From the NCBI RefSeq assembly GCF_026210795.1, contig NC_089458.1, positions 1,302,001 through 1,366,000 on the forward strand: a stretch of DNA of 64,000 nucleotides, read 5' to 3'. Under the pieces are notes generated by a model. The model searched no databases and had not been told where the DNA came from. It worked only from the letters and a program-made list of their open reading frames with translations. Below are positions 6,397-59,950 of the stretch, piece by piece; the stretch's first letter is position 1; every line of letters starts with the position of its first letter. A program made the translations under genes and the position numbers. Source of the DNA: Rhizophagus irregularis (taxonomy: Eukaryota > Glomeromycota > Glomeromycetes > Glomerales > Glomeraceae).

Positions 6397-8994
6397 ATGG
6401 ATTTATTGAAAAAATTTGATGAATTAAATAATAGATTGTCAACTCTATTAGAAGAAAATAAAGAGCTTAAAAGGCAAAATAAAAACTTTCAAGAAGAAAA
6501 TCATGTATTAAAGGAAAAACTTAATGAAAGAGATTATGAAAATCTTCAAGAAGAAAATAAGAAATTAAAACAACATGTTCTAAATTTAGAACATCAAAAA
6601 AATGATCAACTTCGGAAATATAAAAATCTTCAAGAAGAAAATAAAAGCCTTAATATGAAAGAAACCCAATTTCAGCAACATATTCAAAATTTAGAAAAAC
6701 AAAAAAGTGAGCAATTTGAAATATTTTCACAAAATTTAGAAAAGGCTTTAGGAAAGTTGAGATTAGATGACTTACATGAAGATAATGTGAATAATCCCCA
6801 AAAAGATTTTATTTTGAGTTCAGATGAATTAGATGAAGATAATGTGAATGATCCCAAAAAAGATGAGAGTCTTGATTATATGAAGGATTCTACTATACAA
6901 AAAGTGACTATAAAGAAAGTAATACATCCTATAGATAAAAGCTCTTTTAACAAAGGTACGTAATGTTAAATGATTACAATTTTAAAATAATAATTTTGAT
7001 TAAAAACAAAAACTTATAATTAGATAATATCCGAGTCGTAGTTGGATTAGACTTTGGAACAACATATTCTGGATTCTCTTATTGTCATGTTGCTGATTCG
7101 GAAAATATTACTACAAATGATCAATGGCCCGAAAATTTCGGAAATTTAAAGACAAATACGGTACTTCAATATGATTATGAGTATGATCGAGTTGAGTCAT
7201 GGGGACTACCAGCTCTAGCTAAAAGACCGAGTCGTCGAAAGAATGAAAATAGAAAAAGACCAGTTGAATTATTCAAATTGCATTTAGGTAATTTATCAGA
7301 AAATTTAAAACCAAAACTTCCAATTGATTTTGATTATAAGAAAGCTATTACTGATTATCTTCGCGAAATTGGAAAGGTAAGAGTAAAACTTCGAGAATAA
7401 TATAACACATTTACTATAATTACTTATTTGTATGTAAATTTAAGTTGATTAAAGAAACAATTGAGCTACGCTTTCAAGGAATTGATTTTCATAAACATGT
7501 ATTATTGGTTCTTACTGTTCCTATGGAATATTTGGAAGAAGACATAGCTATTATGAGGGAATGTGTATATGAAGCAGAGTTGATTGCAAAAAGGTGCTCA
7601 AATAAGTTACAATTTACTACAGAGTGTAAGTAAAAAATTTTAGAAAAAGCTATAGAATAAAATAATTTAATCAACGTAATTAATACAAAATAATTTTTTT
7701 TTTTACAGCTGAGGCCGCAGCAATTTATTGTATGCAAAATGTATTAAAGGAGCATGATTTGCTAACATCGGGAAGTAAGTTATGAATATTTATTTGATAA
7801 TAAATCTTATAATTATTAAATGGATTTTATTTATTTAAATTAGAAACTATTATGATTGTTGATTGTGGCGGTGGTACTGTAGATTTAACTATTCACAAGT
7901 TAATTGGAAATAATCAATTAAGTGAAATCACCGAAGGTACCGGTGATTTCTGTGGAAGCACATTCATTGATAATGAATTTATTGGTTTTTTACGTAAAAA
8001 ACTTGGAATTGATGCCATAAATTCATTCAGAGACAGCTGTTATAGTCAATTTCAATCTATGATTCAAGAATTCTGTCAACGTGTAAAATTACCTTTCACG
8101 GGAGATGATTTAGTTTTTTCATATGAATTAGATATTGAAATAACTGCTCCAGTTCTATTACAATATATCGATAAAGAAACCAGATTTAAAATGGAAGAAA
8201 ATGAATGGTTGTTTGAAATTAATTATGAAGACATAAAAGCAATGTTTGATCCTGTTGTTGATCGAATTATTAGGTTGATACATTTACAACTTTCTAATGC
8301 TCGAGAAGAATGTTCTGCAATGTTCTTAGTTGGAGGTTTTAGTGAATCAAAATATTTACAAAAAAGGATTAAACAAGAATTTCAACGGGAAGTAAAAAAT
8401 ATCTCAGTACCTAAGAATCCTATAGCAGCAACTTCACGTGGAGCTGCATTATATGGATTTTCTTTATTCAATTCAAAAAATGATAATATGAAAGTTACTA
8501 GATGTATTATTGCTACAAGAATTCTTAAGTATACTTATGGTATTAAAGTGAGAAACTACTGGGTAAGTTTATGGTAATTTATAATATAGTGTATATATAA
8601 CTTTTTTTACTAAGAAATTCTCCTTTTACTTCAGTTGGAAGGAGATCCAATTGAAAGAAAAATCCGCGATGGACGTATTGATAGATTTCATTGCATAGCT
8701 AAACGTGGAATTCAAGTTAATGCTAATGAAGAATTTACAACATTTTTCACGCCACTTTCTCCTATGCAAACAAGAGTATGTTTTAAAATATATTATACTA
8801 AAGAATATAGTGCAAAATATTGCGATGAACCTGGTATGAATCTTTTAGGGAAACTTATTATTGATCTTTCTGGATCCGGACATCTTGATAAATTATTATT
8901 TGGGGTTTCTTTTGGGCAAATGGAATTTGCTATTACTGTAAAAAATGAAACAAGTGGACAGTATTGTAGAACTAAGTTTGAAATTGATATTTAG
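6397..8994 (+). CDS. Coiled-coil/Hsp70-like ATPase fusion, 745 aa
   Basis: An Hsp70-superfamily protein of the divergent type that is strongly expanded in some fungi (closest in style to HSPA12-like proteins), carrying an N-terminal coiled coil. Six exons: 6397-6955, 7024-7376, 7445-7625, 7709-7774, 7844-8562, 8635-8994; all phases agree and give 745 residues. Exon 1 (about 186 aa) is a coiled coil with repeated NLQEEN..LK blocks followed by an acidic linker. The ATPase part begins at VVVGLDFGTTYSGFSY (phosphate-1 loop), has MIVDCGGGTVDLT (phosphate-2) and FLVGGFSESKYLQ (adenosine motif). No canonical peptide-binding domain or C-terminal EEVD is seen; the last exon is a beta-rich tail. I start at ATG 6397 because upstream in-frame codons give no other ATG. 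Cytosolic location and chaperone-like or signalling role are inferences; the exact client is unknown. Confidence 0.88.
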
Positions 8995-10125
8995 TGAATA
9001 ATTATTTTCAATCTGATAAATTCATTGATTTACCTTATATTATCATTTGACAATGTTATTCGCGCAAAATCTCCTGGTTTTTTATAGTATCTATTTATTC
9101 AAAGAAAGTTGGTTCATTCTGAAAAAAATTCTGTATAATAAAAAAAGCCGACATTCACTTGTAACATGTTTAGTCCTCTGATCGCAACCAATAAAAAATT
9201 AAAAATAAAAATTACTTTAGAAAAACTATAGTACAAAAAAGTAATTGATTCCTTTAAGCCTCTGATTATTAATTTCTTAGGCCACACTCTCTAGATCCTT
9301 CCTTAGTGTTTTATAATCTCTTTATGATATAAAGATACTATTTTTCGATGATATGATCATTTAACTAGTCTTTTTTTTCCTTATATCAAAATTGAAGTTA
9401 TTACATAATTATAAGATGACAAAAAAAATTTTAACTTTGCTTGCGAATTTATAATGTATATGTACTGTACATTATGATATTAAAATAATTAATTTTGAAG
9501 AAATAATTTAATGAGTACCACCAACTATACCACCAATGCATTAAATGCATTCTCCTTTATCGGGCCCTTCTTCCAAAGTTATAGCTTCCTTGTTGTGATC
9601 CTTTAATTTACGTCATTCACGTGATATTTTACCGAAACCATTTAGTTTAATTTATTAAACACACGGAAGTAATACTGAGTTGGAAAGTTAAAATTTTAAT
9701 GTTATTTCATTTGTAAATTTGATTCTCCGAAGATATTTCAAAATTCGCTCTTCCATAGCTTAATATGAAACTTGGAATTAACCTAGCTGCCGAACTATTA
9801 TTGTTTAATTTCTATATTTCTTTAGCTTGAATTGCTTGATTTTTATTTTATTATTTTTTTTTCTTCTTAGATACAAAAATGTATAGATTATTTACGATAT
9901 TTACAAAGTACAGCTATTGGTAATATTTATTTACAATATCAATTATATTAATTTATCTTGTGTTAAGCTACTTCACTTTATTCACTTTACTAATATTCAA
10001 AATTAGGTATTCTAATACAAAAAAAAATAAAAAATAAAAATATTATTACTAGTTTATGTGATTTTTTATAAAAGCTATTAAAATAATTTAGTCAAATTAA
10101 CGTAAAAAAATTTTTTTTTTTTGTT
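8995..10125. other. Intergenic region after the intact Hsp70-like gene
   Basis: AT-rich DNA without a credible gene. It contains a CACGTGAT element at 9618-9625, which has no intact gene behind it and may be the orphaned promoter of the decayed Hsp70-like copy that follows. Confidence 0.45.
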
Positions 10126-10905
10126 TACAGCTGGGGCTGCAGTAATTTATATACGAAATTTATTAAAGGAACATGATTGGTTAACACCAGGAAGTAAGTT
10201 ACTTGACAATAAATCTTATAATCATTTAAGCGATTTTTATTTACTTTAAATTTAGCAACTTTTATGATTGTTGATTGTGGCACGGTAGGTATCATAGATT
10301 TCACAAGTTACATAATTGGAAATAATCGGTTAAGTGAAATCACCGAAGGTACCGGTGATTTCTGTTGGGAGCACATTTGTTGATAAAGAATTTATTGATT
10401 TTTTAACGTAAAAAACTTGGAAGTAATGCTGTAGACCTATTAATTGAAATCATTATGGCTGTTTCAATACATGATTCAATATTTCTGTGAAAAGTAAAAT
10501 TCCTTTTACGGGAGACAGAGAAGATTACGATCCATATGAGCTAGATATTGAAGAAACTGCGCCGGTTCTATTGAAATATGCCAGTATGAAACCAAAGATG
10601 AATTGAAAAAGCTAAATTTTTTATTAAAATTGATTATGAGAACCCGTCGAATTATAACAACTTCGAGAAAAATGTTCTGCGATGTTCTTGTTGGCGGTTT
10701 TAGTGAATTAAAATACTTACAGCAAAGGATCAAACGAGAGTTTCAAAATCAGGTAAATGCTATTTCGGTACCTAAACAACCTACGGCAGTAAACTTTATG
10801 TGGAGCTACATTATACGGATTATCTTTAAACATATAAATTATTACTACAAGAATTCTTAAATATACTTTTGATATTAAAGTAAGAACTACTGGGTTGTAT
10901 TTAGT
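10126..10905 (+). pseudogene. Decayed Hsp70-like gene copy A (exon 4-5 remnants)
   Basis: The stretch aligns by eye with exons 4 and 5 of the intact gene at 6397-8994, intron included. An acceptor CAG and the alanine-rich block (GAAVIYIRNLLKEHDW) stand at 10129-10194 with a conserved GTAAGT donor, and the phosphate-2 region follows at 10257 (MIVDCG, then the GGGT loop is scrambled). Later pieces keep LVGGFSELKYLQQRIK (10686-10733). Reading frame shifts several times and central parts are missing, including most of the segment before the adenosine motif. Exons 1-3 and 6 are absent. This is a host gene duplicate that has lost function. Confidence 0.85.
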
Positions 10906-10984
10906 ATAAAATTAAAAATATTAAAATTCGGCAAATCATTATCATTATATATTAATATACGCGTAAATCTTAGTTTATATTATT

Positions 10985-12662
10985 ACAATTAATCAATGGC
11001 CTGATATAAAAACAAATACAGTACTTCAATATGATTCTAAGTTTATAAATGTTGAAACGTGGGGTTATCCTGCACTATCTAAACGACCAAATCGAAGTAA
11101 CTCACATAATTCCTTCCAAAGGAACTATACTTTCAGAAAGCTATTACTGACTATCTTAGAGAAATTAGAGAGGTAACCTCAGATTATATACATATTTATT
11201 GTTAATTTTTAAATTATTTATTTATTAATTTAAATTTAAGTTGATTGAAGCAACCATTGCACAACGCTGGTCAGGCATTAATTTTCAAAATGTATTATTT
11301 GTTCTACTGTTCCTGCAGAATATTCATGCAGTGAAATAGCCGTTATCAGAAATTGTGTTTTTAATGCACGATTAATTGAAGAAAAATGCTCAAAAAATTT
11401 ACAATTTACTACAGAACGTAAGTAAAAGAAATTTTGAATTTCCATCAGATTAGGACCACATTAATATTACTACTCTGTTAATGTAAGTGATATAATTTTT
11501 TTCACAGCTGAAGCAGTTGCAATTAATTGCTTGAAATATATGGGAAAAGATGACATAGGATGTAGTTTTTCATACGTCAAATATTTTTAATATAAATCAT
11601 TAAATCGACTTTCTTTATTATTAAATTTAGTAAATTTTATGGTAGTTAACTGTGATGGTGTTACTGTAGACTTAACTACTCGCAAGTTACTTGAAAATAA
11701 CAAAATGAGTGAAGTTTACGAACGTAGTGGAGATCTCTGTGGGAGTACATTTATTGATCAAGAATTTATTAAATTTTTACATAGAAAACTTGGAAGAAAT
11801 GCCATAGGTTTATTAAGAGAAAATTATTATGACCAATTTCAATACATGATTCAAGATTTCTGTCGAAATGTAAAATTACTTTTCACAGGAGATCCAAGCG
11901 AATATAGACTTTATGAGCTAGAAATCGAAGAAACTGTTCCGGTTCTATTACAATATATCAAGGGTAAAGACAAGGAAGACATAAAAGAAAATGAATGGGT
12001 TGTCGATATTGAATATAAAGATATAAAAGCAATGTTTGATCCTATTGTTGATCGAATTATTAAGTTGATACATTCACAACTTTCTAATGCTCGAAAAGAG
12101 TGTTCTGTAATGTTCTTAGTTGGAAGTTTTAGGTAAATCAAAATATTTACAAAAAAGGGTTAAACACATTTATTTGTTTTATTTATTACAGTATTTTTAT
12201 TTAAATGAAATAAAATTCCGTAGTATTAATTAAATAATTTTTAGCAACTAAAATTACATACGTAATAATATTCTAAGAAATCGCTTCCTATATTTGAAAA
12301 ACATGAAACGTGCATAGAAATATAATAAAATTTATTTGTACTGTTACTGTGGGTATTGAAAAGAAAATAAAATTAATATAAATTTTTTTTAACTCGTTCA
12401 GTTTATGACAGACGGACCTTCATTGTATAGCTAGACTTGGTATAAAAATCAAAAAGTTACAATTTTTTTACACAAATTTCGAAGTTTCATTACTTTAAAA
12501 CTTTAGTAAGTTTTAAACCACTTTATACAATGCAAAGTATTGTGATGAACCTGGTATGATGTGTTTTTGGTTGTTCATCTTTCTGGTTCAAAGACACCTT
12601 AGTGAACTATTATTTGAGTTTACCTTGAAATTTAATGTCAATGTAAAGAATGAAATAAAATA
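10985..12662 (+). pseudogene. Decayed Hsp70-like gene copy B (exons 2-6, rearranged)
   Basis: Remnants appear in gene order: exon 2 from NQWPDIKTNTVLQYDSKF (10988 on) to 11171, with an internal gap; exon 3 at 11241-11416; exon 4 at 11508-11560, truncated; exon 5 from 11633 to about 12160. Within exon 5, 165 codons (11639-12136) are still open, but the phosphate-2 loop reads VNCDGVTVDLT where the intact copy has VDCGGGTVDLT, so nucleotide binding would be impaired even if expressed. A segment copied from the 3' flank of the neighbouring gene follows (12165-12410), and only then a frame-broken exon 6 remnant (12411-12662, DEPGM still legible). The first exon with the coiled coil is missing. Confidence 0.85.
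12165..12410. repeat. Copy 1 of a duplicated ~230-bp segment (inside pseudogene B)
   Basis: From GTTTTATTTATTACAG to AACTCGTT.AGTTTATGA this matches 16045-16270 closely, with small insertions (for example TTAAATAATTTTTAG) and scattered substitutions. The other copy lies directly downstream of the stop codon of the second Hsp70-like gene. Here it sits between exon 5 and exon 6 remnants, so the pseudogene was assembled from more than one parent copy or received the segment by insertion. No terminal inverted repeats are visible. Confidence 0.75.
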
Positions 12663-13134
12663 ATATTAAATTTAATTATTATTATAATGACTTCCAATAG
12701 TTTCAAAATGAATAAACGAATTTCCAAATCTTCCTCTAACTTTTGCTTTCCATTTGCTAAACAATTTTTCTGTGTTTGAAGTCGGTGTTGTTTTACTTAT
12801 CATCATAAATTGACTTTTATTTATACATTATTTTATAACACGCGATTTCCTAAATATATGCGTGTCCGCGCCAATCAGAAGAGATTTTTGTCTTCCCTGA
12901 TAATCCGATGTTTGAGACATCAAATTAACTTTTAATTTAGTTTTGCCAACCAAATTTAAAGTGGTACTCATGCTGTAAAAAACCTGGTTTCGAAAGCTAT
13001 TTAACAATCATGTTCTGACTAATTTCTTTAATATAGAGCCGATCATTTACGTAATTAGGTACACGTGATAATTCGCCGATCATTAATTCATATATACTGT
13101 AAATGTGAAACCACATTACGAAAAAAAAATAATC
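12663..13134. other. Promoter region of the second Hsp70-like gene
   Basis: 472 bp between pseudogene B and the next start codon. A CACGTGAT element at 13062-13069 lies 73 bp before the ATG and a TATATACTG stretch follows at about 13091. No ORF of note. Confidence 0.45.
13062..13069 (+). promoter_or_regulatory. CACGTGAT element before Hsp70-like gene 2
   Basis: Exact CACGTGAT, 73 bp upstream of ATG 13135, in the same orientation as the copies before Pmp3, TIM22 and eIF2-beta. It resembles a bHLH (Cbf1-type) site; function inferred. Confidence 0.4.
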
Positions 13135-16011
13135 ATGAATTTATTGGAGAAATTTGATAAATTAAATAATAGATTAACAAGTTTATTAGAAGAAAATAAA
13201 GAACTTAAACAACATTATAAAAATCTTCAAGAGCAACATCAGGAATTAAAAGAAAAACTTGATGAAAGTGATTATAAAAATCTTCAAGAAGAAAATGAGG
13301 ATTTAAAACAACGTATTCTAAATCAAGAAAAACAAAAAACAAATTTATTAAGAGAAAATGAAAGGCTTAACCAACAATGTAAAAATCTTCAAGGAGAAAA
13401 TATGGATTTAAAACAACGTATTTTAAATCAAGAAAAACAAAAAACAAATTTATTAGGAGAAATTGAAATGCTTAAACAACAATATAAAAATCTTCAAGAT
13501 AAATTTAACGAAATAGATTATAAAAATCTTCAAGAAGAGAATAAAAAATTAAAAGAAAATTTTAACAAGAAAGAAAAACAATTTCAACAACATATTATAA
13601 ATTTAGAAAAACAAAAAAATGAACAACTTGAAATATTTTCTCAAAATTTGGAAAAAGCCTTGGGAAAGTTGGAATTGGATGAATTAAATGAAGTTAATGA
13701 AAATGATATTAAAAATTCTAAAAATTCTAAAGAAAATGAAAATGATATGAAAAATTCTAAAAATTCTAAAGAAAATGAAAATGATATTAAGAATTCTAAA
13801 AATTCTAAAGAAAAAAATAAGCCTACAATATTTCCTTTAATTGATGATGATATTAAAGACAAGGAATTTATCCAACATATTGATGATCCCTCTGGCTCTG
13901 TTCCATTTTCATCTGAAGATAAAAGTAATCGATCAGAAAATGAACACTCAAGGGGTTCTTCTAACGAAAGTACGTAGTAATAAATGTTTTTTTGTAATTT
14001 TTTAAAAAAAATAATTATTTGTGATTAAAATGAAAAAAATTAATTTAGGAGACAATATCAAAGTCGTGGTTGGACTAGACTTTGGAACAACTTATTCTGG
14101 ATTCTCTTATTGCCATACTGCTGAACCGAAAAATATTATTACAAATAATCAATGGCCTGATATAATGGGGTATTTGAAAACAAATACAGTACTTCAATAT
14201 GATTCTAAATTTATAAATGTTGAAACGTGGGGATATCCTGCACTAGCTAGACGACCAAGTCGAAAAAATCAAAGGGAAAAGAATGAAAGTGAAACAAGAC
14301 CAGTCGAATTATTTAAATTGCATTTAACTTGTAATAAGAAACCTTACCTTCCAAGGGAATTATGCTATAAAAAGGCTATTACTGACTATCTTAGAAAAAT
14401 TGGAGAGGTAACCTCAATATAATTTATAATATTATTTATTGTTAATTTTTAAATTATTTACTAAATAAATTAAATTATAAGGTAATCAAAGAGACAATTG
14501 ATGTACGCTTGTCATCACCTGCCGATTTCTTTCGACATGTATTATTGGTTATTACTATTCCTGCAGAATATTCAAACAAAGAAATAGCTATTATGAGAGA
14601 TTGTGTTTTTAATGCAGGATTGATTGGAGAAAAATACTCAAGAAATTTACGATTTATTACAGAACGTAAGCAAGGAAATTTTTAGATCTTCATCAGTTAT
14701 TTTGTTGGTTAAAACATATATTAGGACCATTAAATATTATTACTTTGTTAATGTGAGTGATATAATTTTTTTCACAGCTGAAGCAGTAGCAATTAATTGC
14801 TTGAATGATATGGGAAAAGATAACATACTAACAATAGGATGTAGGTTATGTACATTTTTCATATGTCTAATATTCTAAAAAAATTCACTAAATCGATTTT
14901 CTTATTATTAAACTTAGCAAATTTCATGATAGTTGACTGTGGTGGTGGTACTGTGAAATTACCGAACGTGCTGGAGATTTCTGTGGAAGTACATTTATTG
15001 ATAAAGAATTTATCAATTTTTTACGTAAAAAACTTGGAAGTAAGGCCATAGATCTATTAACAGAAAATCATTACGGCCACCTTCAATATATAGTTCAGGA
15101 ATTCTGCGAAATTACAAAATTTCCTTTCACAGGAAACAGAGAAGATTATGGGTATGAGCTAGATATTGAAGATTTTCCAATTCTATTAGAATATATCAGT
15201 GAGGAAACCAAAGATGAATTGGAAAAAACTGAATTTCTTATTAAAATCGATTGTGATGCTATAAAAGCAATGTTTGATCCTGTTATCAGTAGAATTATTA
15301 GTTTGATACATTCACAACTTGATAGCATTCAAGAAGAATGCTCTGCAATTTTTTTAGCTGGAGGTTTTAGTGAATCAAAATATTTACAAAAAAGGATTGA
15401 ACAAGAATTTCAACATGTAGTAAAAAATATCCGTGTACCTACGCGTCCTATTGCAGCAATTTCACGTGGAGCTGTAATGTATGGATTATCTTTAAAAAAA
15501 GGCAATGTTATTTCTACAAGAATCCTTAAATATACTTACGGTATTGAAGTAGTAAATTACTGGGTAAAGTATTTTATATTTGATATTTAATCTTATATAT
15601 AAACTTATATAAACTGTTTCAAGGAATTCTTATTTTACATTATTTTAGATGGACGGAGATCCAATCAGTAGAAAACTTCATAATGGACGCATTGTTAGAT
15701 TTCATTGTTTAGCTAGACGTGGTACTCAGGTTGAAACAAATGAAACAGTTAAAACATTTTTTACACCACTTTCTCCTCTCCAAACCAGAATAAGTTTTAA
15801 TATATTTTTTACTAAAGAATATAATGCAAAATATTGCGATGAACCTGGTATGCGGTTTTTGGGAAAACTTGTTGTTAATCTTCCTGGTTCAGGCCTCCTT
15901 GATAGGCTATTATTTGAGTTTACCTTTGGACAAATGGAGATTACTGTCAATGTAAAGAATGAAACTGATGGACAAAGATATATTACCACTTTTAAATTGG
16001 AAGCTGATTAG
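13135..16011 (+). CDS. Second coiled-coil/Hsp70-like gene, frame disrupted in exon 5
   Basis: A paralogue of 6397-8994 with the same exon plan: 13135-13969, 14049-14407, 14482-14665, 14778-14840, 14918-15563, 15649-16011. Exon 1 codes for a longer coiled coil (about 278 aa) containing internal tandem repeats. The ATPase start VVVGLDFGTTYSGFSY and the adenosine motif GGFSESKYLQKRIEQEF are intact, and splice phases at all exon borders match the paralogue. In exon 5, however, the sequence jumps from GGGTV straight to the codons for EITERAGDFCG: compared with the paralogue about 43 nt are missing, the frame shifts, and translation would stop at 15051. Downstream codons remain well conserved, so the break is recent, a polymorphism or an assembly error. 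As read, the product would be a coiled coil plus an incomplete ATPase lobe. Confidence 0.8.
13276..13485 (+). repeat. Two 105-bp tandem repeats within coiled-coil exon
   Basis: Units 13276-13380 and 13381-13485 are near-identical and a third, shorter start (AAAAATCTTCAAG) follows at 13486. 105 bp is 35 codons, exactly five heptads, so each duplication lengthens the coiled coil without breaking its register. Encoded core: KNLQ.EN.DLKQRILNQEK. Confidence 0.85.
13699..13815 (+). repeat. Three 39-bp tandem repeats encoding ENDIKNSKNSKEN units
   Basis: Three consecutive 39-bp units (13 codons) encode EN-D-(I/M)-KNSKNSKEN in the linker between coiled coil and ATPase. The intact paralogue has no such block. 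The units differ by one or two bases, so the expansion is recent. Confidence 0.85.
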
Positions 16012-32733: not shown

Positions 32734-34430
32734 ATGTCAAATGGTACGGAGAAAAACTCAAAAATTGATCTATGTAAGATTATTTCACCTTTTCAAAACT
32801 TTTTTAGGAACAAAATTTATAATGATCATTATTGAATTCATCGAAAATCGAAAATGAAAATATATATATATTTTTTTTTTTGTAGCAAAACCTCGATATG
32901 ATCAATTTACGTATTGGGGTCGTGTAAAACATTTTATTGATATTACTGATCCAAGGTAAAATAATAATAATTAACATTCGTTAAATTGATCAATTTTTTT
33001 TTTTTTTTTTTTTGAAAATTGAAAAAAAGTTTAATATTTCATTCTTATTGTTATTATTTTTTTTTTAAAGAACATTGTTTGTATCAAGTAAAGGTCTTGA
33101 AGAAGCAAAAAAATTAATTAATGATTATAATTCTGATAAAATTCAAAATGTGGATCCAGAAAAATTATGGCATGCAAAAAAAAGTGAATAATTATTTATT
33201 TAAAATTAACATATTTTATAATATATTTTATAAAAAATATATATATATTTTATAATAATATTTAATAAATATATATATATATATTATATATATTATAAAT
33301 ATATATAAAAGATATTTTAACAATCTATAATATTTTTAATATTTTTCAAAAGTTGTCGATTCAACAATTCATCCGGATACAGGAGAACCAGTATTTCTTC
33401 CTTTCAGAATGTCATCATTCGTACCAACCAATCTTGTTGTTGTAGCTGGTATGCTAATGCCTAATCCTAGTGTAAGATAATTTAAATAATTTTTTTTTTA
33501 TAATCTTTCTTTATTTTTTTAAAATTTATTATTATTATTTTTTGTTAAAATAAACTGACATTTTTAGAATTTTAGATAGGTAGTATTATATTTTGGCAAT
33601 GGACAAATCAAAGTATCAATGTAGCTATAAATTATTCAAATGCTAATAAGACAATTGAAATGAGTTTAAAAGAGACTGCAAGTAAGTGATTGGGGATTGT
33701 ATATTATTTTTATTATTTATATTTTAAAACATTCAATTAAAAAAAAACATTTTTTAACATTTATAAAATTTTCGACATTTTACAACATTTCAATTAGTTG
33801 CATATATTTCAGCCGTGACAACTTCATGTGGATTAGCGGTTGGTCTTACACAGGCTGTACCACGTCTTAAATTCTTAAAACCATCTGTACGTGGTGTATT
33901 AACAAGATTAATTCCATTTGTAGCTGTTGCTAGTGCTGGTACTGTTAATGTTTATTTAATGAGAATGAAAGAAATTAGAAATGGAATTGATGTTTATAAT
34001 GATGAAGGAATTAGTTTGGGAAAATCGAAGAAAGCTGGTGCATCAGCTGTTGGTCAAGTCGCAATTTCACGTGTTTTAACTCTTGCTCCTGTATTAACGA
34101 TTCCACCATTTGTACTTTCTCAACTTGAAAAAACAAATTTATTAAAAAAGAATCCGAGACTTTCAATTCCATTTAATTTTGGTAAAAAAATTGATAATAT
34201 ATATATTTATTTATTTATTATTTTAAAACTAACTCATGTATATATATATTTTATATATTTTTTTTTTAGGGATTATAACAATAACATTGATGTCTGCTTT
34301 ACCATTGGCTATTGCCGCTTTTCCACAAAAAGCCGTGATAGATCCAATGAAATTAGAACAACAATTTTGGGATTTAAAAGATAAAAATGGTGAAATTATT
34401 AGAAAAGTATATTATAATAAGGGATTATAA
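32734..34430 (+). CDS. Sideroflexin (mitochondrial tricarboxylate/serine carrier family), 325 aa
   Basis: A sideroflexin, an inner-mitochondrial-membrane transporter family; animal SFXN1/3 import serine for one-carbon metabolism. Seven exons: 32734-32773, 32886-32955, 33071-33183, 33353-33471, 33576-33681, 33813-34181, 34270-34430, total 325 residues, the family's usual length. Hallmarks: YDQFTYWGRVKHFIDITDPR followed by TLFVS near the N-terminus, IVDSTIHPDTGEPVFLPFRM, FVPTNLVVVAGMLMPNPS, IFWQWTNQSINVAINYSN, and the C-terminal membrane segments with LAIAAFPQ. Four to five hydrophobic spans are visible. No cleavable presequence, as usual for the family. Substrate in this fungus is inferred from family knowledge only. 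Confidence 0.93.
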
Positions 34431-40500: not shown

Positions 40501-40960
40501 TTATATTATCTTGAAAATATTTCTAAAATGAAATTTTAATAATGGATTTAAATTAATATGTTTCAAATCAATATTATGATATTGAATTAAATTAATTATA
40601 GATTGATGTAACTCATTTTCTTGAGATTGTAAATGATTAAAATTAAGAGTATCCCAATCTAATTTTAAAAATTTTAAGTTTAAAAGAGGAAAATCTTTTA
40701 AATTATCAACAAAATTTAAATCATTAAAAGTTAATTCTAAAGAATTACTCCATTCATCATCTAAAAAGTAAAAACCAGAATCTTCAACATTATTATGAGA
40801 GATTAAATTTAATTTCATTATAGAATAAAAATTATTTTGTAATTCTAATAAAATTAATTTTATAAATAAAGAATTATAATTAATATGTAATTTTTCAAGA
40901 TAATATTGAGATTTAATTAAATTAATTAAATCTAAATAAGAATTAAATTCCGTATTATTA

Positions 40961-40997
<37 letters not shown>

Positions 40998-41766
40998 TAT
41001 ATACATCATAAAAACTTAATGATAAATCCCTTATTTGATTATTTGATAATTTTAATATATTATATAATATATCAATATCTTTTACTAATAATTTACAATG
41101 AAACTTTTTTAAAAAGAAACCAGTAAATCCATTATTCCCTATTTGTTCAGGTATTTTTAAAAGTATATTAAAAATATCTTTTGAACGCCAATAAAATATA
41201 TCTAATATTAATGTTTCAATTCTTGAATTATTTAAAATAATTAAAAGTATTGATTCAATAAATTTATTTGAATCTTCTTGTTTTATTGTACTTTTTACGT
41301 TCAAAATATTTTCAATTTCATGTTTAATAACATGATAAGAATTTTGTTCAAATATTTGCATCATTCCATAATATAAATAATTATCATTCATAATTGAATA
41401 ATCTTTTGGATTGTTTCTTAATTTTTTTAAACATGTTATTGCTTGATAACACATATTTGTATAATCCAATTCTTTTATGAATGATACATAATTAAATGTT
41501 GGTTTTTCTTGAATATTATTTGTTTTTGTTTTATTATTTTCTTCAATTTTTAATGAATTTCTGATTTCTTTATCAAGATATGATATTAATGGTAATATCA
41601 CTTTAAAATGTTCGTTCGTTTGATTTTCTTTAAATGGTTTTTTCCATAATAATGATATACTTATTCGACACCATGTTCTATTAACCAATAATAATGAATA
41701 TAATGATTTTTCATCAATATATTTAAATATTTCTAAAAGACATTCATCTGGTAATTTTGTTGCCAT
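40501..41766 (-). CDS. F-box protein, 421 aa, single exon
   Basis: An F-box protein, expected to bind Skp1 and recruit targets to an SCF ubiquitin ligase. The F-box covers residues 3-45 (LPDECLLEIFKYIDEKSLYS, then LLLVNRTWCRISISLLWKKPF). The remainder is leucine/isoleucine/asparagine-rich with irregular leucine-rich-repeat-like spacing (for example LRDLSLSFYDVYN..., LKFLKLDWDTLNF) and could be the substrate-binding part. A run of NDND and eight Asn residues is encoded by an ATT/ATC microsatellite at about 40950-41000 on the plus strand. Intronless, start ATG at 41766. F-box genes are very numerous in some fungi; the target is unknown. Confidence 0.85.
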
Positions 41767-43008
41767 CGTTTAAGTATGAGAATAGGGAGAGGATAAATTT
41801 AAGTTATTTGAAATAATTTTTGTGTATTTTTCAAAAAAAAAAAATATAAATAAATAAATAATTTAATTTTAATTATAATAAAAAAGTAAAATGAATGAAT
41901 TTTTATTTATTTTATTTTATTTTATTTTATTTTTTTTTTTCGAACGTTTTTTTAAAAAAAAACAAAAAAAAATTTATAAAAATTCGTACGTATTTAAATA
42001 TTCCTCTTTATTTATTTTTATTTATATTTTTTTTCAATTTATCAATTTTGACATGCGGTGGATAATTTATAAAAAATTCATTCAACCAATGTACATCATT
42101 TTCGGAATAATAACATTATAAGTTATGATTTACTTTTGTTTTTTTTTATGATTTAGTAATATCTTATGTAATCGGAAAATTTTCCTGATTTGTTATAGAA
42201 AAGTTTTGAAGTTTTCCATATCACAATAAAGACATAATGTAACAATAACAAATTGATATATATGTACATGACTATAATACATTTTAGGTATTAAGGTGTG
42301 AAAAATTTTAATATTGTGTATTAAATTATTTTAAATTATTATTATTATTTTTTTTAAACGTTAGAAAAAAAAATTAAAGTTGAGCAAAAGTATTACGCCG
42401 TACGATGCGCCAATCTTACCGATCACTTAGAAAAGTGTTATTTTATTTTTTGACATAATTCTTTGTTATCAAAATATTGTTCTTTTATGTAATATATTAC
42501 GTGATTATATATATATATGTATCTATTTACTATATGTATTATATTTTAATAATGTTCATGTACTTTTATATTTTATTTTTACCATTTTTAACCTTTACTT
42601 CGAAACGCGAAATTGTTGATTCATTCCTTTTTTTTTTCTTAAAAAAAAAAAAAAAAAAAATTCTCTTCGTAATTCTTTTCCATAAATATTCCTGATTTAT
42701 ATGTAATTAACGGAATAAGTTCCAATGCTTCTGGAATAATTTTATGTAAACAACTATGTAAACGTTAACCTGCATGTTAAAAAAAAAAAGCTATATTAGT
42801 TGCAGATTATATAATATGTTTATCAATTTTTTGGATCGAATTTATGCATATTACCTCACGTGATCACATGACGCACAATGTATATTATCACTATTATGTT
42901 GTTAATGTTACACTTCCCATCTATCATAAATAGGATCGGATCACAAATAAAAAAAAAAAATCTCTTTTTTTTTCGTGACAAATTTTTCACGTAAAAAATT
43001 AATAATAA
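41767..43008. other. Divergent intergenic region (F-box / TIM22)
   Basis: AT-rich with poly-A at 42640-42660. It contains a CACGTGAT element at 42857-42864 overlapping GATCACATG, 152 bp before the TIM22 start. No ORF of note; the hydrophobic frames at 41891 and 42477 are low-complexity. Confidence 0.5.
42857..42864 (+). promoter_or_regulatory. CACGTGAT element before TIM22
   Basis: Exact CACGTGAT on the plus strand, 152 bp before ATG 43009, at about the same distance as in front of eIF2-beta (154 bp). Function inferred from recurrence. Confidence 0.4.
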
Positions 43009-57860: not shown

Positions 57861-59950
57861 ATGTCTCATAATTCTTCTCAGGATAACTTACCTTTTGTAT
57901 TAGATAATGAAGAAAATGAAGAGTTTGAAGAGTCTATATCTCTTCAAGTAACTTCTCACAAACAGAAACATAAAAAGTATTTACCCGAAGAAGAGAATGA
58001 ACCTTCAAACACTGGTGATTTGGCACCATTATTATCTAATTCTTCACGAGACTCCATAGCACCAGATTCAAATAGTATATTAGTTTTAGAAAATGGAGAT
58101 ACCTTAAGAATGCCAAAGGATGGCGGTTCATTTTTTGAAAGCTTTTTAAATATGGCAAATAGTATTATAGGAGCTGGTAAGATTAAAAATTTTCTTAATT
58201 TACTAACTAGATCAATAAATAAATATTAATTAAAATTATTATTTATTTACTAACTATCTCTTATTTATAGGTATTATCGGTTAGTATCATTTCACGGACT
58301 TCATTTTATGAATTCCGTAAATTGTAGCCATTTGAACCTGTTTTTGATTATAGGACTGCCGTTCGCATTTCGTGAGTCTGGTGTATTTGCCGGTGTTATT
58401 CTTTTAATAGGACTCACGGTTTTGGTAGATTGGACGATACGACTTTTGATCTATAATGCTAAATTATCAGGACGAAACTCATATCAAGAGGTTATGCAAT
58501 TTTGTTTTGGAAAGAGTGGACTGATAATAATATCCGGATTTCAATTTGTATTTGCATTTGGAGGTGAGAAAAATTTTTATGTCTTTTGAATAATGTTTTC
58601 ATTAACAAATTTGTTAAATCATAATTAATTATTTTTAGGAATGTGTGCATTCTGTGTTGTTATAGGTAAATAAATAATCGTTAATAATAATTTGCCCAAA
58701 CTTTTCCTTTGTACATATTAAGATGAGAAAAAGAAAAACAATATTCATAAATACTTTAGGTGACACAATTCCTCACGTCATTGCATCGCTATTTCCCGCC
58801 ATAATAAAGATCCCGGTTCTTAATCTTTTTACGGATCGTTATTTTGTTATCATGTTTTGTACTATTTTCATATCATATCCATTATCTTTGTACCGAGATA
58901 TTTCAAAGTTGTCTAAAGCAAGTGGATTGGCTTTAGTATCGATGACTGTTATAGTAACATCTGTTGTAATAGAGGCTCCTCAAGTTGATCAAAAATTAAG
59001 GGGTAGCAGTGAGGAAACTTGGACTTTTGTTCAACCACAAATATTTCAGGTAGGATTTACGCAATTATTCAATTTTAGAAAATAATTATTCTCTAATCGT
59101 TTTTTTTAACTTACTAGTCAATTGGTATAATTAGTTTTGGTAAATATATTTTCTTAACCAGAAATTTTACTGCGATGGATATACTTAAATATTGTTATAA
59201 TTTGTAGCTTTTGTTTGTCATCACAACAGTTTGTTGATTTTCGATTCATTGCGTAAACCCACGTTGAATCGATTTGCGGCAGTAACACACTTATCTACGG
59301 GAATATCAATGCTAGCATGTTTACTGGTAGCTTTGGTCGGATATCTGGTGTTTACTGATAAAACAGAAGGTTATTTCTAATACAATAAATACATTGAAGC
59401 TATTGAAATTATTACGCTTTATATTGACACCTTTTTTCCTTTCTTTCAGGAAATATTTTAAACAATTTTCCCAAAGATAACGTTATTATAAACATAGCAA
59501 GATTTTGTTTCGGATTCAATATGTTTACAACTTTACCATTGGAAGCATTTGTTTGCAGAGAGGTATTTATGCTTTAATTGCAATAAATATTTTATCTAGG
59601 CATGTTAAAATTAATGTTTATCTTAATATTTTTAGTCAATTGAGATATATTATTTCTCAAATGCACCATTTTCAATGAAACGACACGTGATCTCGACTAC
59701 TGTACTCGTTGTGTGTGCAATGATAGTGTCATTGTTAACAAGTGATTTAGGCATTGTATTAGAATTGACAGGTGGATGTTCAGCAACAGCATTAGCTTAT
59801 ATTTTACCTCCTGTATGTTTCCTTAAATTGTCGTCAGGGAAATGGTGGAGTAGGAAAAAACTACCAGCCGTATTATGTGTTGGGTTTGGAATAGCTGTAA
59901 TGATACTAAGTACCATTTTAAGTATAATAAAAATTTATAAAAATTTTTAA
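57861..59950 (+). CDS. AVT/SLC38-family amino-acid transporter
   Basis: A transmembrane amino-acid transporter (Aa_trans family), closest in layout to yeast AVT vacuolar transporters and animal SLC38. Nine exons: 57861-58176, 58271-58279 (9 nt), 58354-58563, 58639-58665 (27 nt), 58760-59049, 59118-59139 (22 nt), 59218 to about 59368, about 59450-59562, then to 59950. Joined product: an acidic soluble N-tail (about 90 aa), then NMANSIIGAGIIGLPFAFRE (family signature at TM1, created by the 9-nt exon), about eleven membrane spans, ISFAFVCHHNSLLIF (signature centre), FGFNMFTTLPLEAFVCRE and a C-terminal TGGCSATALAYILPP. Likely vacuolar or plasma-membrane proton-coupled amino-acid transport; direction not deducible. 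The acidic N-tail (DNEENEEFEESIS) could be a regulatory or sorting region. Confidence 0.9.

Follow-up and report, generated by a model that had tools for sequence, protein, structure and literature searches.

Hsp70 proteins are usually regulated through separate co-chaperones and through a lid, and in canonical members such as DnaK an ATPase is followed by a substrate-binding beta domain. Departures from this plan have been described in several settings. HSPA12A and HSPA12B are atypical Hsp70s that have lost the substrate-binding part, or keep it only in incomplete or highly diverged form, and which have no C-terminal Hsp90-contact motif; the accessible text mentions no N-terminal coiled coil (PMC2266713). 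Among the genomes examined in that work, three fungi included, HSPA12 homologues were confined to vertebrates (PMC2266713), a distribution that calls for caution in giving the HSPA12 name to fungal proteins. In bacterial conflict systems, divergent Hsp70 units with a nucleotide-binding domain (NBD) and a substrate-binding domain (SBD) have been reported, among them those of the CoCoNuT systems, where the unit stands amid many coiled coils and McrB/McrC parts are either fused to it or encoded next to it (PMC11090510); Hsp70 proteins have also been found beside GTPase systems (PMC7159879). Hsp70-type proteins are reported to be expanded in Glomeromycotina, where a general stress role is proposed for them (PMC8778642). 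Here we analysed 64,000 nucleotides of the fungus Rhizophagus irregularis (contig NC_089458.1, positions 1,302,001 to 1,366,000 of the forward strand; hereafter the window, numbered from its first letter), where an earlier note, written from the sequence alone, had described two neighbouring genes between positions 6397 and 16011, each splicing an exon-encoded coiled coil onto an Hsp70-like ATPase. The note had called this ATPase HSPA12-like. Among the open-licence full-text matches listed, we found no description of a coiled coil ahead of an Hsp70 ATPase in fungi, in line with the note's remark that the architecture may be undescribed.

The first of the two genes (copy A, 6397-8994), lying in a window whose low guanine plus cytosine content (25.6%) and genes would suit an arbuscular mycorrhizal fungus such as Rhizophagus, is open throughout and has six exons, separated by GT..AG introns of 68-83 bases, with an intact predicted product of 745 residues. 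All splice junctions given here, for both copies and for the wider family, are predictions from the DNA. The features of copy A are as follows.

6397..6955, + strand: exon 1, coiled coil and acidic linker; 186 codons plus 1 base
6956..7023, + strand: intron 1, GTACGT...TTAG, phase 1
7024..7376, + strand: exon 2, start of the ATPase (VVVGLDFGTTYSGFSY), the motif having no in-frame ATG before it
7445..7625, + strand: exon 3, ATPase; limits set by GT..AG and by comparison of the copies
7709..7774, + strand: exon 4, ATPase
7844..8562, + strand: exon 5, DCGGGTVDLT phosphate motif, lobe II, LVGGFSES motif and start of the C-terminal domain
8635..8994, + strand: exon 6, diverged substrate-binding beta domain up to the stop; no lid, no EEVD

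The ATPase of copy A carries the phosphate-1, connect and phosphate-2 motifs of the Hsp70 superfamily together with the catalytic D, K, E and D, and its residues D9, K84, E177, D206, G208-G210, T211 and D213 are invariant in comparison with three Streptomyces relatives. We infer that K84 is the counterpart of K70 of DnaK, and compared with relatives the catalytic residues are intact. The NCBIfam models for HscA and DnaK match this region with E-values of 1.4e-7 to 8e-6, far below the model cut-offs, and the Hsp70-type rows in PDB searches are DnaK, SSB1, Hsp70 and BiP. A family profile built from 26 bacterial and 2 fungal rows, which were tested jointly, can be aligned with DnaK, starting at residue 118 and running to the end of the beta domain. 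When the last domain alone was compared with the beta domain of 11 canonical Hsp70 sequences, 111 columns were aligned with a score of 34.3 (P = 3.8e-5), a value reached by none of 100 column shuffles (maximum 17.1) nor by the reversed profile (16.2, P 0.068). The match is clear only with these 11 Hsp70s and weak with shallow Hsp70 profiles, for which P was 0.04-0.23 and, in another run, 0.007 locally and 0.07 globally. Exon 6 thus codes for a diverged Hsp70 beta domain, contrary to the original statement that no substrate-binding domain was recognisable, and the predicted protein of copy A consists of a coil, a linker, an ATPase and a lidless beta domain. The protein ends a few residues past the last aligned beta strand, with neither the helical lid (SBD alpha) nor an EEVD tail, the latter absence having been rightly noted before. 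Compared with canonical Hsp70s, copy A therefore keeps the order of ATPase and beta domain, while lacking the lid and the EEVD tail and having an N-terminal coil added.

Several lines of evidence bear on whether the coil exon is coding and joined to the ATPase. Exon 1 is constrained as coding sequence: between copy A and the second gene (copy D), the proportion of synonymous differences (pS) is 0.46 and that of nonsynonymous differences (pN) is 0.24, with a bootstrap range of pN/pS of 0.40-0.75, and pN/pS lies below 1 in 51 of the 55 pairs formed by 11 coil exons of the family (L099, L101, L132 and L133 were left out of this set, and L077 was trimmed to 165 codons). The observed heptad patterning was reached by 3 of 100 shuffles for copy A and by 3 of 100 for copy D, with a range of 0 to 24 per 100 over 13 exons. 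An argument for heptads from the lengths of insertions and deletions was considered and dropped: an internal repeat in copy D is 35 residues long, but the insertion in L133 relative to L132 amounts to 29 residues, counted by eye. In 13 of the 15 genes read, copy A included, no ATG occurs in the ATPase frame from the in-frame stop upstream to the phosphate-1 motif (the exceptions being copy D and L081), and in these genes the ATPase thus needs an upstream exon. Phase 1 gave the top-scoring join wherever any phase was allowed, L081 also permitting a weaker phase-2 pick, while the donor scan of 13 exons took phase 1 only; the donors picked by script in that scan were GTACGT in 3, GTATGT in 8, GTATAT in 1 and GTATTA in the broken L101, and the donor of L132 and L133 is GTAAGT.

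These results agree with the earlier note on the first exons, the GTACGT donors, the junctions 6955/7024 and 13969/14049 and the phase of both copies, all of which were correct. Its claim of donor conservation holds for copies A and D, which share GTACGT, but not for the family, in which the donor varies. The alternative it had named, transcripts starting inside intron 1, is impossible for copy A if the ATPase is to begin at an ATG, and possible for copy D, where an in-frame ATG lies at 14030.

The genome was searched over 146.7 million bases in 32 contigs, using four coil exons and two ATPase exons as queries, and the coil exon was found in at least 18 places: on C30, the contig of the window (2), C18 (11), C15, C14, C13, C3 and C10.

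C18, near 236, 249, 276, 294, 401, 443, 503, 647, 692, 722 and 824 kb: coil-exon places

An ATPase exon stands behind the coil exon, within 1 kb and on the same strand, in 17 of the 18 places; that on C14 was recognised by reading the DNA and that at C18:692 by a weak match together with reading. The remaining coil exon, C10:758485, is a relic with several stops, and the coil exons on C3 and C13 likewise contain stops. Together with the 13 ATPase frames that have no ATG of their own, this arrangement upholds the view that the gene is a real fusion and not a mis-joined gene. Since the 18 places are related copies and not independent events, they speak for retention of the fusion and not for its repeated origin; judged from these DNA data, the coil fusion looks real as a family trait whose parts have been retained together. 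Exon 1 varies in length from 119 to 278 residues across the family (the broken L101 excluded). The first ATPase exon gave 134 genome matches, split and broken copies included, of which 85 lie on C18. Among the best 30 of these 134, the highest coil score found on the sense strand within 1.5 kb upstream was 1.56-1.70 in 12 and at most 1.40 in 18. Other members seem to begin near the ATPase; L103, for one, reads MSDNLDNDIRVVVGI, the motif then following on the next small exon. A gene tree of the first ATPase exon, based on 35 short rows of 97-130 residues, is poorly resolved, with unlabelled rows mixed among the coil rows; in it, L072 forms a deep branch, and copies A and D fall outside the C18 group, support being weak. 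The tree gives no clear backing to a single fusion event: set against the four rows that carry the other group labels, the coil label takes two changes, with 18 rows uncounted. A coil of old origin that was later lost or replaced in some genes would be compatible with it.

The note had presented the second gene as an intact sister of copy A, a description that our analysis does not bear out. The features of copy D and of two further copies, which lie between A and D and were absent from the note, are listed below.

13135..13969, + strand: copy D, exon 1, coiled coil longer than that of copy A
13970..14048, + strand: copy D, intron 1, GTACGT...TTTAG, phase 1; its in-frame ATG could start the ATPase alone
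14049..14407, + strand: copy D, exon 2
14482..14665, + strand: copy D, exon 3
14778..14840, + strand: copy D, exon 4
14918..15563, + strand: copy D, exon 5, frameshifted by the loss of 43 bases at about 14952/14953
15649..16011, + strand: copy D, exon 6, open in the pre-deletion frame only
about 10079-10895, + strand: decayed copy B, pieces of exons 4-5; no coil exon found
about 10979-12655, + strand: decayed copy C, pieces of exons 2-6; no coil exon found

Copy D matches the plan of copy A through exon 4, and within its exon 1 the stretch 13275-13393 recurs at 13380-13498 (92% identical), a shift of 105 bases, or 35 residues, or 5 heptads. The frame of copy D is lost because 43 bases of A are missing from its exon 5, right behind DCGGGTV; downstream of this deletion the sequence is still A-like, but in another frame only. 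Rescue by cryptic splicing was considered and rejected: the frame that is open downstream of the deletion meets a stop at 14934, immediately ahead of the motif, and the next usable acceptor (by eye) lies beyond the motif, so that the phosphate-2 loop is lost either way. Copy D as assembled is most likely a pseudogene, a recently broken sister of A, the alternative being an assembly error at this point. Only one of the four window copies is thus intact.

Bacterial relatives often place a coil-rich ORF beside a similar ATPase. A protein search returned eight Streptomyces plasmid records, and 56 loci were found among 84,980 species, with the lowest E-values in cyanobacteria. These relatives, divergent 'Hsp70 family proteins' of Streptomyces plasmids and cyanobacteria (P0002-P0004; L005-L012), are colinear with copy A over the ATPase and the C-terminal domain, three of them having been compared to the last residues; their best segments are about 22-33% identical, and they share the DCGGGTVD and VGGFS motifs with the fungal protein. 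They differ from it in having no introns and in that their coil-rich open reading frames (ORFs) are mostly separate downstream genes. Of the 56 loci, 49 were examined, the 7 weakest matches being omitted. Hsp70s had been said to have nothing ahead of the ATPase, which fits 24 of the 49 loci, where the first possible start lies at most 13 residues from the ATPase match; the remaining loci have either a poorly defined start or only a partial match. At L013 and L040 the ORF extends about 500 residues ahead of the ATPase, with charged, helix-like stretches seen by eye; L013 stops short of the beta domain.

A downstream neighbour was defined as an ORF of at least 90 residues on the same strand, from -60 to +80 bases behind the ATPase gene; 22 such ORFs were found, and the other 27 loci had none. 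A coil score of at least 1.45 was reached by 20 of these 22; among ORFs directly upstream it was reached by 3 of 16, and among other ORFs by 6 of 205, and the bacterial ATPases themselves scored 1.0-1.40 (30 measured). Most of the coil-rich proteins, which seem to share operons with the divergent Hsp70s (L005-L053), fall into two clusters, the first mainly from cyanobacteria and the second mainly from Streptomyces. In two scanned Streptomyces partners (P0005, P0006) no Pfam match exceeded the cut-off, PADLOC at E 0.01 gave no match for five bacterial proteins, and no relative was confirmed in the viral contigs scanned, nor any found in phages. These counts are a strong lead that a coil-rich partner belongs to the divergent Hsp70 ATPase in bacteria, and the position of the coils in the next gene suggests that coil and ATPase work together. 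The fungal fusion would then be an analogous partnership joined in a single chain.

Our preferred reading, whose chances we judge to be about even, is that the product of copy A is a divergent Hsp70-type ATPase, lidless and with a spliced N-terminal coil, acting as a coil-assembled switch. Through the coil, the chain would form multimers, either of its own kind or mixed with sister copies; the ATPase, as it binds and hydrolyses ATP, would alternate between states in which a peptide or partner is taken or let go via the lidless beta domain; and several switches clustered on one rod would allow strong, cooperative binding. Multimer formation, ATP cycling and cooperative binding are thus proposed steps, and an oligomerising ATPase switch is plausible, the coil-ATPase architecture itself being well supported by the predicted gene structures. 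A number of observations weigh against this reading. Pfam HSP70 (PF00012) gives no row for copy A at E up to 10; among the bacterial relatives, P0002, P0003, L006 and L013 pass this model, P0004 falls just below its cut-off and L040 has no row. In four of the 55 coil-exon pairs silent changes are not in excess (the highest pN/pS shown is 1.19, for D-L098), the heptad value of L072 was the one matched by 24 of 100 shuffles, and in 2 of the 30 fungal loci the antisense strand also scores high (L090, 1.64; L092, 1.46). The coil genes do not form one clade in the tree. On the bacterial side, only 13 of the 22 downstream ORFs reach the fungal coil range (at least 1.56), and 18 of the 20 coil-rich neighbours come from loci of two blast clusters of 10 loci each and are thus not independent. 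The coil score is moreover home-made and the set of other ORFs holds spurious ones, so that the bacterial coil partner is a strong lead and not proof. Finally, the coil-bearing sister L132 (C14:1229300-1230850) reads DCGESTIDIT where copy A has DCGGGTVDLT; going by this motif, L132 may be a non-hydrolysing member, and some members may only bind. With ATP motifs damaged in sisters such as that on C14, ATP cycling need not be general.

Other explanations of the same data differ in what they make of the coil. It could be only a tether for targeting or scaffolding, for example to the cytoskeleton or a membrane, without multimerising the ATPase. The flexible acidic linker between coil and ATPase and the variable length of exon 1 would suit such a role, but no targeting domain was found, all Pfam matches in the coils of copy A and L077 being below cut-off, and we regard this explanation as rather unlikely. 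The family might instead be decaying, the window copies being mostly pseudogenes and the coil having no present function: three of the four window copies (B, C and D) are broken, coil exons on C3, C10 and C13 contain stops, and pN/pS is near or above 1 in some distant coil-exon pairs. Against this stand copy A, open throughout with its catalytic residues in place, and the close coil-exon pairs L077-L086, L077-L087, L086-L087 and L084-L085, in which pN/pS is 0.32-0.40; general decay thus seems improbable to us.

It is harder still to credit that the coil and the ATPase belong to two neighbouring genes, or to alternative products, and that the splice between them is only apparent. The in-frame ATG in intron 1 of copy D, the ATG upstream of the ATPase in L081 and the stop that an unspliced exon 1 meets two codons inside the intron would allow separate products, but the lack of an ATG ahead of the phosphate-1 motif in most ATPase frames, that of copy A among them, the recurrent phase-1 join and the near-constant position of the ATPase exon behind the coil exon leave this explanation very little room.

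Other front ends were seen at two loci on C18. At L094 (C18:842029-845388, reverse strand), exons of a protein kinase domain (PK_Tyr_Ser-Thr) stand directly ahead of the ATPase exon, to which they could be joined in phase 1 via a GTAAGT donor, the ATPase frame having no ATG. The phosphate-1 motif of L094 is GLEFG, which may mean an impaired ATPase; beside a second ATPase match, at C18:830 kb, the kinase segment recurs in identical form. At L082 (C18:156512-159859), an ORF with a fungal MACPF-like match (PF22693; 29.5 bits, cut-off 27.5) ends some 0.7 kb before the ATPase exon. This ORF was rejected as a fusion: the relation is one of adjacency only, the ATPase frame of L082 has its own ATG, and the ORF may be a neighbour. 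A functional analogy with NLR/STAND proteins, which carry exchangeable N-terminal signalling or effector modules on one ATPase core, might be drawn from the coil in 17 places, the kinase of L094 and, by adjacency only, the MACPF-like ORF of L082; the ATPase differs, since its motifs and profile matches place it in the Hsp70/actin type and not among the P-loop NACHT or NB-ARC ATPases. By this analogy the divergent Hsp70 might be the central switch of modular sensors in this fungus, in the role of NACHT or NB-ARC in NLRs, with N-terminal modules (coil, kinase, perhaps MACPF-like) swapped by exon shuffling and with clusters that grow and decay, as would suit non-self or partner recognition. We consider this proposal unlikely. 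The window also holds ordinary genes recognised by Pfam: a class 3 lipase (2507-2977), a sideroflexin (33767-34381), an F-box protein (40504-41769) and an amino acid transporter (58678-59082).

Taken with the next-gene coils of the bacterial relatives, a coil built in before a lidless Hsp70 points to an ATPase that would be run as an assembled switch. The coil-Hsp70 family described here offers a handle on the expansion of Hsp70-type proteins in Glomeromycotina.

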